This document shows positions 4,091 to 8,890 of a DNA stretch of 64,000 bases, piece by piece (position 1 is the stretch's first letter; each line of letters begins with the position of its first letter). Source of the DNA: Rhodospirillaceae bacterium (lineage in GTDB: Bacteria > Pseudomonadota > Alphaproteobacteria > Rhodospirillales > Rhodospirillaceae); contig NSIP01000001.1 in the NCBI GenBank assembly GCA_002737725.1, positions 186,001 through 250,000 of the forward strand, given 5' to 3'. The notes beneath the pieces are model-generated. The model was not told the DNA's origin. It saw only the letters and a program-made list of their open reading frames with translations, and ran no database searches. The position numbers were made by a program, and so were the translations under genes.

Positions 4091-5014
4091 CTAAGCGGCA
4101 TCGTGGGCGGCCGACACCTCGCGCAAAATACGCGCAAAGGCGGTCATGGCTGGCGTATGCGTGCCGCGAGCCCGCCACGACAAGCCCACCTGATATTCAA
4201 ACTCAAGCTCGGCAACGTTGAGTGCAACCACACGGCCATCGCGGAGTTCTTCACTCATCACATGATCGGGCACCACGGCAGGCAAACCAAATTCCATCAC
4301 CGCTGTTTTCATGAAGCTCATGGAAGATGTGTTGATTTTCTGAACCGGGCCATCAAACCCCGCAGTGCGAAACGCATATTCGAAGCGATAGACCAACGAC
4401 ATCTGTAGCGGAATCGCCCAGGCATAGGTTGCCAGTTCGCGTAACGTGACACGTTTTGATTTTGCTAATGCATGGTCTGCGCGCACATAAGCGCGCGAGA
4501 AACTATCAAACAGCGTCTCGCGACGAATATGCTCGCCGGGCGCGACTTCCAAATTGGCCGGGTTGTCCAGGAACTGGGAAAAGACAATGTCGAGTTCATA
4601 GCCGCGCAGCATGCGGGTCAGGTTCTCGTAGGTCTCAGTCGACAAGCTGACGGTTACGCCGGGGTAAATGGCAAACAGGCGCTGCACGGCTTCCGGCACT
4701 AAGTAGCTGACAAAATTGGGCGAAATGCCCACCCGCACCTTGGCCTTCTCAATCCCCCGAAAGGCTTTCAGCTCCTCGGCGGCCCTGGTGGCTTCGTTCA
4801 ATATGGCTTTGGCGTAGGGCAGGTAGATTTCGCCAAAGGCTGTCATCACCACGCCCCGGGGGCCGCGCTCTAAAAGCTTACCACCCACTTCTTTCTCTAA
4901 GCGCTGCAAACTGCGGGTGAGTGCGGGCTGAGTAATGTTTAAATCCAGGCCGGCTTGGCCAATGGATCCCCGATTGGCCACAGTCACAAAATGCCGCAAA
5001 TGCTCGATATCCAT
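4091..5014 (-). CDS. LysR-family transcriptional regulator
   Basis: 307 residues. The N-terminal winged helix-turn-helix (about 1-60) carries the usual pattern, with ITQPALTRSLQRLEKEVG as the recognition region, and the periplasmic-binding-like effector domain spans about 90-300. LysR regulators are tetrameric and usually control a divergent operon together with their own gene, responding to a small molecule. Here the divergent genes are the small protein at 5205 and the methyltransferase at 5595. The first 80-bp operator repeat begins only 6 bp upstream of this start codon, so autoregulation is likely. The effector cannot be read from the sequence. dapC follows 133 bp downstream on the same strand but is probably independent. 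Confidence 0.93.
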   Translation of the reverse strand: MDIEHLRHFVTVANRGSIGQAGLDLNITQPALTRSLQRLEKEVGGKLLERGPRGVVMTAFGEIYLPYAKAILNEATRAAEELKAFRGIEKAKVRVGISPNFVSYLVPEAVQRLFAIYPGVTVSLSTETYENLTRMLRGYELDIVFSQFLDNPANLEVAPGEHIRRETLFDSFSRAYVRADHALAKSKRVTLRELATYAWAIPLQMSLVYRFEYAFRTAGFDGPVQKINTSSMSFMKTAVMEFGLPAVVPDHVMSEELRDGRVVALNVAELEFEYQVGLSWRARGTHTPAMTAFARILREVSAAHDAA

Positions 5015-5023
5015 CTCAATTCA

Positions 5024-5040
5024 CATGCCCTTTAAGCATG
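5024..5040. promoter_or_regulatory. Putative LysR operator, copy 1
   Basis: CATGC-N7-GCATG is a perfect 5-bp-arm palindrome. The T at 5026 and the A at 5038 are 11 nt apart, which fits the classical LysR T-N11-A box. It ends at the edge of the LysR translation start region, as expected for an autoregulatory site. Confidence 0.6.
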
Positions 5041-5103
5041 ACTATAACATATGAAAGCATATTATGGCATGACTTTATCTCGGGCATAATGGTATGATCA
5101 TCT

Positions 5104-5120
5104 CATGCCTCTTAAGCATG
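5104..5120. promoter_or_regulatory. Putative LysR operator, copy 2
   Basis: Same CATGC-N7-GCATG palindrome, exactly 80 bp from copy 1. Its arms are unchanged although the spacer differs, so the arms appear to be under selection. A CATAAT hexamer at 5165-5170 could be the -10 element for the plus-strand operon. No good -35 sits upstream, which is common at activator-dependent promoters. Confidence 0.6.
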
Positions 5121-5204
5121 ACTATAACATATAAAAGCATACGATTGCATGACTATATCTCAGGCATAATGATACGCTCAAACGTGAGATGATGGAGATT
5201 GACG

Positions 5205-5576
5205 ATGGTTGCAGCACCGGGCCTTGGCGCCCCCAAAGAGCGCGTCTGGGTCGCCAAAGGCAAACAGCCGCGGTTTCACGACGATCGTGCGGTCGATCAA
5301 CTCATGGCCATGGTCACGGCGTTGACCGCCGAAGTGGCGATTTTGCGTGATCGAGTCGACACGCATGAACGCATCGCCGAAGGTCGCAAACTCTTTAGCC
5401 GTGAAGACGTCGACAGCTTTATTCCCGACGCCCCAATCATGGCCGAGCGCTCAGCGCAGCATCAACGCATTCTTCGCAAAGTCTTTCGCGTTCTCAAAGA
5501 AGACCTCGCCCGTCACGACAAACCCGCCGACGATGCCGAACTTGACCGCCTCGCTGCCGAAATCAACGCCGCCTAA
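5205..5576 (+). CDS. Small hypothetical protein, first gene of the LysR-linked operon
   Basis: About 123 residues, family not recognised. The N-terminus is basic and flexible (APKERVWVAKGKQPRF). A helical, heptad-like stretch follows (about 28-60, AVDQLMAMVTALTAEVAILRD). The C-terminal half is charged (KVFRVLKEDLARHD ... DAELDRLAAEINAA) and is predicted helical. There is no signal peptide or membrane segment. ATG 5205 is preferred over a TTG at 5199 because GGAG at 5194-5197 sits 7 nt upstream of it. The stop is 18 bp before the methyltransferase start, so the two are surely cotranscribed. It could be a partner subunit of that enzyme; no function is claimed. Confidence 0.75.
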   Translation: MVAAPGLGAPKERVWVAKGKQPRFHDDRAVDQLMAMVTALTAEVAILRDRVDTHERIAEGRKLFSREDVDSFIPDAPIMAERSAQHQRILRKVFRVLKEDLARHDKPADDAELDRLAAEINAA

Positions 5577-5594
5577 TTTTATCGGAGAGCCCGC

Positions 5595-6758
5595 ATGACC
5601 ATCGCCAAGACAAATCTCGCTGAACCGCATCCCATGATGCCGAAAGTAAATCACGACGAGATTTCAGAACAAATGTTCGTCTCGGATTTGAAAACCTTTA
5701 TCGGTCGCGAGCTGGAACCCGGCCAAGCTAACCTGATGACCAACAAAGTCATCCCCGAGATGACCAAATCAAAAGGCCGCAGCCCCGCCAATCACATTGA
5801 AGTGCGCGGCGAGATGGAAAAAGACATCGACTACCAAGCCTGGGCTACACTCACCCGCACCGCCCAAGAGATGATGTGGGATAGCGTGGCGACGTGCGTT
5901 GATCGTCAGCTCGATAAGCTGGTGGACAAAAGCGATGTGAAAAACCCCAAGGGCTCGCTGACGGTTGATCCAAACTTTGTCGTGCCCCGCTACATCGACG
6001 CGTTTGATATTCACTGTATGCCCGGCAACTACCATGCCGTCACACGCGAGAACGATGTGCGTCAAGGCGCGGTGTTCGACCGTGCCGCTGCCATCTATCA
6101 CATGGGTCGCAACGGCGGATTCATGAATGATGTTCGCGGGCACACGGTCGTGTCTCATTTTATCGAACGCTGGCCTGACGCAAAACCCGCGCGTATTTTA
6201 GATATCGGTTGCACGGTTGGGCATTCTACGGTCGCGGTGAGCGAATACTTCCCTGAAGCTGAAATGCACGCCATCGATGTGGGCGCAGGTTTGTTGCGCT
6301 ATGCGTGGGCGCGCGCCGAGCATCTGGGTGTGGGCATTCATTTTTCGCAACAAAATGCCGAAGCCACCAACTGTCCCGACAACCACTTTGATTTGGTCTA
6401 TTCGTCAACTGTTCTGCATGAAACCTCGCATGCGGCCTTGCCGCGCATCATGGCTGAATGCAAACGCATATTGAAACCAGGCGGTGTAATGTTGCACCTC
6501 GAAGTGCCCGGCCATTACAGCCAACTTGACACCTGGGGCCGCATTCGCGGTGATTTTGAAATCTTCTACAATAATGAGCCCTTCTGGCGCGGGGCGCTGA
6601 CGACTGATTTCAAGAAGTTGGTGGAAGACGCAGGCTTTAAAGATGTGCGTGCGGGCTACCAAGATGCAACGTCGCGCCCCCAAAAAGGAACGCAAGCCTT
6701 CCGTGACAAATCCAAAGGCGTTCACGCCTCATGGTTCATTGTGTCAGGAACAAAATAA
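5595..6758 (+). CDS. Class I SAM-dependent methyltransferase with a ~190-residue N-terminal extension
   Basis: 387 residues. The Rossmann methyltransferase core starts near 203 with motif I ILDIGCTVGHST, then an acidic motif II (MHAIDVGAG), motif IV DLVYSSTVLHE and the post-motif region RILKPGGVMLHLE. The residues before it form a separate predicted helical region (VSDLKTFIGRELEPG ...) without a family I can name. A Shine-Dalgarno GGAG lies 8 nt before the ATG. The LysR gene, duplicated operator and small upstream protein indicate inducible expression as a two-gene operon. The substrate is unknown; a small molecule (natural product, quinone-like or xenobiotic compound) is more likely than nucleic acid because the core resembles Methyltransf_11/25 enzymes. 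That last point is inference. Confidence 0.85.
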   Translation: MTIAKTNLAEPHPMMPKVNHDEISEQMFVSDLKTFIGRELEPGQANLMTNKVIPEMTKSKGRSPANHIEVRGEMEKDIDYQAWATLTRTAQEMMWDSVATCVDRQLDKLVDKSDVKNPKGSLTVDPNFVVPRYIDAFDIHCMPGNYHAVTRENDVRQGAVFDRAAAIYHMGRNGGFMNDVRGHTVVSHFIERWPDAKPARILDIGCTVGHSTVAVSEYFPEAEMHAIDVGAGLLRYAWARAEHLGVGIHFSQQNAEATNCPDNHFDLVYSSTVLHETSHAALPRIMAECKRILKPGGVMLHLEVPGHYSQLDTWGRIRGDFEIFYNNEPFWRGALTTDFKKLVEDAGFKDVRAGYQDATSRPQKGTQAFRDKSKGVHASWFIVSGTK

Positions 6759-8041: not shown

Positions 8042-8890
8042 ATGGCCCGCCCACTCATTGAGTTTCTGTTCGCGCAACATCTGCCCTGGGCTCCTGGCCT
8101 GCCGGGCAGTGCGCGTGATGATGTGGATGCCAAAATCCTCAGCCGCGATACGGCGAACGGCGAGTTGACCGCCATTGTGCGCTACCCTGCCGGCTGGGCG
8201 CGACCCGAGGCAGAATCGCTCGCCGCTGAAGAAGAGATGTATGTGCTTGAGGGCAGTCTCGTCATCAACGGGCACACCTATACGCGCGATACCTACGCCT
8301 GCTTACCCAACCACTATCAGCGCAGCTCGGCTGAAAGTATTGACGGTTGCGTGGCGCTGACGTTCTTTGACGGAACCCCCGCAGAATCAAAACCCGTTGC
8401 GATGCCCGACCCCACGGCGCCTCTGATCGAAGGGCTTGATGTCTACGCTATGCGTTGGGATGCCAAGCCTGCCGACCCATCATTAGAGTGGATGGGCAAC
8501 CGGCGTAAAATTTTGAGGATGGACCCTGTCTACAAACAAAAAGCGACGTTTATTATTTCCACGCCGCCGCACATTTATCCTGACAACTGGGCCTGCCCCA
8601 CACTCACACATCCTTGTGTTGAAGAATCATTCATGTTGGCAGGCGACATGATCGGCCCCCATGGGCGCATGACGCCGGGCGCATACTTCTGGCGGCCCGC
8701 CGAAATTCCACATGGGCCTTTTGGCACGCGCGATGGTGGGATGTGTTTGATTCGCTTTCGTCACGGCCCGCATGTGAATGTCTGGGGCGAGACGCAAGTG
8801 CCCTATACGTTTGATACACCCTATAAGCCCGCCTTACCGCCCGCGCTCAAAGAATTCGCAACCTTTTATGACGGCGCGGCGCGCTACTAA
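8042..8890 (+). CDS. Bicupin protein, DUF4437/ChrR-like
   Basis: 282 residues forming two cupin barrels. In the first, RPEAESLAAEEEMYVLEGSL (about 59-78) resembles cupin motif 1 and the LPNHYQRSS region motif 2. In the second, HPCVEESFMLAGDM and RPAEIPHGPFG (about 196-226) carry histidine and glutamate residues in metal-binding positions. Such proteins bind a metal and often sense or degrade small oxidised compounds, but the substrate here is unknown. The gene stands divergent from hemW, about 75 bp away, and is followed after 19 bp by a decayed permease gene. Together they form an insert within the usual rph-rdgB-hemW run. Fold confident, role not. Confidence 0.75.
   Translation: MARPLIEFLFAQHLPWAPGLPGSARDDVDAKILSRDTANGELTAIVRYPAGWARPEAESLAAEEEMYVLEGSLVINGHTYTRDTYACLPNHYQRSSAESIDGCVALTFFDGTPAESKPVAMPDPTAPLIEGLDVYAMRWDAKPADPSLEWMGNRRKILRMDPVYKQKATFIISTPPHIYPDNWACPTLTHPCVEESFMLAGDMIGPHGRMTPGAYFWRPAEIPHGPFGTRDGGMCLIRFRHGPHVNVWGETQVPYTFDTPYKPALPPALKEFATFYDGAARY

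Follow-up and report, generated by a model that had tools for sequence, protein, structure and literature searches.

Many bacteria of water and soil carry, next to genes for the breakdown of organic compounds, a two-gene unit formed by a small protein that matches no known family (S) and a methyltransferase-like protein (M). Our best explanation, in which we place slightly less than even confidence, is that M belongs to an undescribed family of SAM-dependent methyltransferases, that S is its partner, and that the pair is a catabolic module that has been duplicated. The copy from which the analysis departed lies in a stretch of 64,000 nucleotides, hereafter the window, where the following features were defined.

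4091..5014, - strand: LysR-type regulator of 307 aa, divergent to the S-M pair, with Pfam HTH_1 and LysR_substrate domains.
5021..5100, no strand: operator unit 1 (80 bp), with the LysR-box-like ATGC-N7-GCAT; the motif is exact.
5101..5180, no strand: operator unit 2 (80 bp), tandem copy of unit 1, 85% identical.
5205..5576, + strand: S, protein of 123 aa, mainly helical by prediction, no cysteine.
5595..6758, + strand: M, methyltransferase-like protein of 387 aa without export leader, 18 bp after S.
5595..6164, + strand: N-terminal region of M, about residues 1-190, containing the invariant H140; no Pfam or PDB match.
6183..6509, + strand: SAM-methyltransferase core of M, about residues 197-305, with H275 and E276; Pfam Methyltransf_25, E 4e-20.
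8042..8890, + strand: cupin gene, second gene downstream of M, with a relative in the pJE1 plasmid island; associated with the pair.

The ORF coordinates bear out the arrangement described in an earlier note on this DNA, with S preceding M on the + strand at a distance of 18 bp. S is a genuine gene, with orthologues of 64-94% identity on five public MAG contigs. The description of S as lacking a recognisable family also holds, as nothing exceeded the Pfam or NCBIfam cut-offs and no significant PDB match was obtained; so does that of some 190 unassignable residues ahead of the SAM core of M, since a profile of this N-terminal region gave a best PDB E-value of 1.5 and no Pfam family.

The predicted structure of S is mainly helical and of low confidence (pLDDT 64), and a fold search with this model returned no match in the PDB. 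The S of the window has zero cysteines and therefore no zinc-cysteine site. Trm112, a small methyltransferase activator with zinc-binding cysteines that serves several enzymes, is like S in the works-like sense only of a small partner for several enzymes; S differs from it by the lack of cysteine and of any sequence or fold relation found. The identification of S with a known methyltransferase activator was set aside. A long Lys/Ala-rich, histone-H1-like N-terminal tail is present in the S proteins encoded at L078:5266-5934, L081:5011-5571, and L083:4779-5384. No relative was found in the viral contigs scanned.

By its Pfam and PDB matches, the core of M is an ordinary class I SAM-methyltransferase. 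It scores 72.8 bits with Methyltransf_25 (gathering score, 27) and, more weakly, 24.8 bits with Methyltransf_2 (PF00891; gathering score, 22.3); the N-terminal dimerisation domain of Methyltransf_2 was not recovered, the N-terminal region of the window M matching no Pfam family. The sequence matches of the core in the PDB are 3bus, 3mgg, and 6uak. Across 124 non-redundant M paralogues, from loci picked through S or M matches and partly for tandem M arrays, the SAM motifs are kept (G205 in 119, G209 in 122, and D228 in 120), and H140, H275, E276, and E328, the last one located downstream of the core, are invariant in all 124. In the alignment with the methyltransferase 3bus, H275 stands at the first H of its LHHM. 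A comparable histidine may act as a base in related O-methyltransferases; a literature search on the catalytic-base role of such a histidine gave no confirmation.

None of the 25 NCBIfam models listed for M reached its cut-off. BioC (TIGR02072) and trans-aconitate methyltransferase (PRK14103), both carboxyl methyltransferases, gave the best or near-best NCBIfam scores for the M core, yet far under their cut-offs (51.9 bits against 184.95, and 35.7 bits against 320, respectively). A Pfam scan of the N-terminal region in 25 paralogues yielded TAT_signal in two of them and otherwise single weak matches. A structure model of M from six orthologues reached a pLDDT of 34 and is not used for any claim. 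M shares the core fold signature and the SAM motifs with the class I SAM-dependent methyltransferases (Methyltransf_25/11; 3bus, 3mgg, 6uak), and with 3bus also the aligned histidine after strand 4, and departs from them in the about 190 unmatched N-terminal residues with the invariant H140, in the partner gene S, in its very large copy number, and in the leaders carried by some copies. We propose that M would methylate small organic intermediates at their hydroxyl or carboxyl groups, and that its family-specific N-terminal region would complete the active site, bringing H140 together with H275, E276, and E328. S would act as a small helical partner, either an accessory subunit or a folding partner.

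The two genes occur together across genomes. Of 61 genomes, 13 have a match to S (E up to 0.001), and the identical 13, which all belong to the taxonomic family of the window, have one to M (E up to 1e-20). Class-wide, 385 alphaproteobacterial genomes were searched, the scoring being limited to 11 S and 4 M candidates per genome. S was present in 24 of them at E up to 1e-6, M in 25 at E up to 1e-45, and both in 23 (Fisher p 1e-33); the exceptions were G430, with S alone, and G119 and G283, with M alone. A search through the phylum found S in 4 of 349 genomes, including the window's own, two of them outside the class. Joint conservation, the lack of which the earlier note had listed as a refutation, was found at both scales, in the same 13 relatives and in the 23 genomes common to S and M. 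Contamination of the MAG was set aside, as the pair is also carried by plasmids and by 13 genomes of the same family.

The pair is not a lone system, the 2.92-Mb genome of the window having 29 M and 20 S in all. Copy numbers in a selection of 16 genomes, with M counted up to an E of 1e-40, reach 70 M and 36 S in G008 (3.5 Mb), 62 M and 34 S in G020, and 63 M and 8 S in G395, from another family; at the lower end, the counts of M and S are 1 and 1 (G517), 2 and 2 (G703), 2 and 1 (G074), and 3 and 3 (G234). In family f55, the S:M ratios are 8:63, 7:42, 6:42, and 5:16. From this unevenness, S may serve several M, or just some of them.

Within the window genome, 16 of 19 S have an M on the same strand no more than 250 bp away, in both gene orders (S-M in seven and M-S in nine), and three have no full-length M inside this distance. 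Seen from M, 15 of the 29 copies have an S inside 250 bp and 14 do not. An S gene at L053:4458-5035 adjoins an M fragment of less than 90 residues, in a pair that is apparently decaying. The distances among S and among M are correlated over 15 pairs (r 0.61, a value reached in 0 of 5000 shuffles), mostly because the types of S track two types of M, with and without an export leader: the correlation is not significant for the leaderless pairs (n=9, r 0.42, 343 of 5000 shuffles) or for the Tat-type pairs (n=6, r -0.07, 3007 of 5000). Taken as a whole, the interpretation offered in the earlier note is partly supported: the pair is co-conserved, S and the M N-terminus are unclassified, and a LysR-box-like motif is present, but the pair is one of many in its genome, S and M are not one to one, and the regulator adjoins only some orthologous pairs.

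The note's duplicated operator is present as described, as two 80-bp units (5021-5100 and 5101-5180) that are 85% identical, each with one of the two exact occurrences of ATGC-N7-GCATGACTATA in the window, a box that we take to be of the T-N11-A type; no further ATGC-N7-GCATGACTATA appears in the window even when up to 2 mismatches are allowed (shuffle mean, 0.11). The box-like motif lies between the regulator and the pair and was found only in loci with this LysR gene (131 of 138 examined loci have no match), in keeping with the LysR control proposed in the note; a LysR orthologue adjoins the pair in just 4 of 12 orthologous loci (G000, G004, G002, and G036), as seen in flanks of about 1.5 kb for all but the window and L023-L027. 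Three of these four have the exact box (G000, G004, and G002), and G036 has the LysR gene without an exact match. The LysR-bearing relatives L023 and L024 each have a single operator unit, so that the duplication was unseen outside the window genome in the two relatives compared. The idea that LysR is a constant component of the system was set aside. In the window, the operator-bound LysR protein would turn the pair on when an intermediate is present; such regulation of the pair, as read from the sequences, is likely, but it is local and does not define the system.

The surroundings of the M and S genes are rich in catabolic functions. Over 77 distinct stretches, the recurrent families near M or S are CoA-transferase III (10), isochorismatase-like (7), alpha/beta hydrolase (7), DUF1838 (6), PEP-mutase/isocitrate-lyase-like (6), FAD oxidase (6), HMG-CoA-lyase-like (5), MmgE/PrpD (5), and aconitase/LeuC-like (4). 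The families were named from Pfam matches of some members or from similarity to annotated pJE1 genes, and the alpha/beta hydrolase group by reading of the sequences; neighbouring ORFs were picked mechanically, and a few of the "families" are antisense frames or wrong starts. Homologues of the 23 families that recur near M or S elsewhere are present in 12 of 27 M/S loci and in 1 of 20 control regions (p 0.003), the latter being fixed, author-picked places of the window genome. The catabolic neighbours recur in a gammaproteobacterium and on plasmids. Members of the Rhodospirillales are described as aromatic-compound degraders in PMC9789639, in the main text of which the word "methyltransferase" occurs 0 times.

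Some loci have a composition of their own. Three Rieske-type proteins, recognised by eye, are interspersed with one S and three M genes at L037:2897-11288. The stretch L031:6464-10362 is a tandem row of five related genes whose products seem to have signal peptides, and an M-S pair follows immediately downstream. One protein encoded at this locus shares 32% identity with a DUF3108 protein of pJE1.

A more complete setting is found on plasmids, nine records of which, seven from Novosphingobium, were matched by tblastn with an M. On plasmid pJE1 of Sphingomonas sp. JE1, M is annotated as "class I SAM-dependent methyltransferase" and S as "hypothetical protein"; they are 35% and 31% identical to the M and S of the window, respectively. 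On plasmid pTomTYG65b of Sphingobium sp. TomTYG65, M is annotated as "hypothetical protein", and S is encoded but unlisted and reaches the end of the record. In pJE1 (L143), pTomTYG65b (L146-L147), and G703 (L092-L093), M and S lie within a common island of about 25-30 genes. Its genes include a TonB receptor, transporters, a CoA-transferase, HMG-CoA lyase, LeuCD, MmgE/PrpD, a HapK-like protein, flavoproteins, and hydantoinase genes, together with PuuE-allantoinase-like, caprolactamase-like, and methylisocitrate-lyase-like genes, and much of it surrounds two S-M pairs in G703, outside the class.

The plasmid island and the window have M, S, and the cupin in common, the window cupin being 34% identical to its pJE1 relative (E 2e-39), and one hypothetical gene of the island is related to a gene at the window's pair or its orthologues. 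A gene located upstream of the orthologous pair in G008, G027, and G026 is 38, 37, and 28% identical, respectively, to its relative on the pJE1 island. The plasmid island and the window differ in that pJE1 and pTomTYG65b have a single complete island that contains hydantoinase and PuuE-like genes, for which no counterpart was seen next to M or S in the window genome. The pTomTYG65b island encodes two LeuC proteins above the NCBIfam cut-off, an isochorismatase-family protein near N-carbamoylsarcosine amidohydrolase, and, below the cut-offs, two PuuE-allantoinase-like proteins, a caprolactamase-alpha-like protein, and a methylisocitrate-lyase-like protein. As a lead only, this gene content could indicate that the substrates of the pTomTYG65b pathway are cyclic amides, imides, or lactams converted to alkylmaleates, for example tetrapyrrole-derived maleimides. 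The isolate TomTYG65 is one of those obtained from tomatine soil (PMC10653915); the word "methyltransferase" was counted 0 times in it. No paper on the S-M pair or the M family was recognised in the literature searched, as far as which the function of the pJE1/pTomTYG65b island is unpublished.

A different kind of variation affects the N-terminus of M. The window genome encodes TatC, and 11 of its 29 M (10 by another, stricter rule) have a twin-arginine motif at the start, with a hydrophobic stretch behind it; 18, including the window's own M, are leaderless; Pfam TAT_signal matches 2 of the 25 paralogues scanned. Leaders were seen in 40 of the 124 M, a figure that is not a rate because the loci were chosen by S or M matches and partly for tandem M arrays. 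On a FastTree tree computed with the leader columns omitted, the leader label changes 3 times, against 34 in shuffles. An S neighbour is present for 6 of the 11 leader-bearing and 9 of the 18 leaderless M, and the six S adjoining leader-bearing M show no leader by inspection. At L110-L113 (G008, G005, G027, and G020), at least four M genes, mostly with twin-arginine leaders, follow each other in a row close to a flavoprotein and, at L110 and L112, also to a Rieske-type protein recognised by eye. Short-chain-dehydrogenase-like proteins with apparent signal peptides, again by eye, are encoded at L033:8630-9472, L114:11626-12411, and L115:3653-4474, and represent another type of cofactor-dependent enzyme that looks exported. 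To our knowledge, SAM is not expected outside the cytoplasm, and we know of no supply of it there, which makes the leader-bearing copies the strangest part of the finding.

Several of these observations count against a methyltransferase with a dedicated partner and have to be weighed with the alternatives. The insignificant S-M agreement within either type of M, the absence of S beside 14 of the 29 M, and the low S:M ratios of f55 would suit an independent S, that is, a scaffold or regulator of the same pathways that stays nearby since pathway genes travel together, as would the three S without a full-length M inside 250 bp and the long Lys/Ala-rich tails of some S (L078, L081, and L083). The near-complete co-occurrence of S and M across genomes and their adjacency in both orders argue against it, and we regard an independent S as unlikely. 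It is also conceivable that M and S serve ordinary methylation, in biosynthesis or detoxification, and lie by chance near catabolic genes in genomes rich in catabolism; the methyltransferase core is a common one, and Pfam matches alone would class M as ordinary. The enrichment of catabolic families at the M/S loci relative to other regions of the same genome, and the presence of these neighbours also on plasmids and in a gammaproteobacterium, make this reading distinctly improbable.

The main rival with an exotic mechanism concerns the chemistry of M. SAM or SAH could be a tightly bound, unconsumed cofactor that assists isomerisation, elimination, hydroxylation, or substrate-to-substrate methyl transfer, for which RdmB, LepI, and glucose-fructose oxidoreductase provide precedents. 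Tat-type M would then be exported folded with their cofactor, accompanied or proofread by S. The twin-arginine leaders on 11 of the 29 M, which fit poorly with an enzyme that spends SAM, the presence of TatC, the retention of the SAM motifs and putative catalytic residues in the leader-bearing copies, and their arrays of at least four in G008, G005, G027, and G020 all point in this direction. It would also fit the several M genes found within one degradation cluster (L058-L060), which are odd for plain methylation. That none of the listed NCBIfam methyltransferase models reached its cut-off is a further point against the preferred reading. Against a bound cofactor stands that the window M and 17 others, 18 of 29 in total, are leaderless, and we consider a bound, unspent cofactor quite unlikely for M. 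A similarly low probability is given to the more specific proposal that the leader-bearing M are extracytoplasmic enzymes of the SAM-methyltransferase fold that hold SAM or SAH without spending it, with S as a chaperone or co-exported protein. If it were true, the members of the family would work in the catabolism of planktonic bacteria, where each would open or rearrange an organic compound of its own rather than methylate one; and if the leader-bearing copies are exported and active, the question arises of how a SAM enzyme can work without a known supply of SAM.

We return to the methyltransferase with a small partner as the preferred reading. The S-M pair would be a catabolic module that was duplicated and then specialised, probably with one substrate class per copy, and that sits in gene islands for the uptake and breakdown of organic acids and ring compounds. 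This small unit lends itself readily to experiment, as it comes in dozens of natural variants and is present in named Sphingomonadaceae on a compact island of a plasmid. For the bacteria that carry it, 70 copies of one enzyme in a 3.5-Mb genome indicate a major activity without a name, probably in the turnover of organic compounds.
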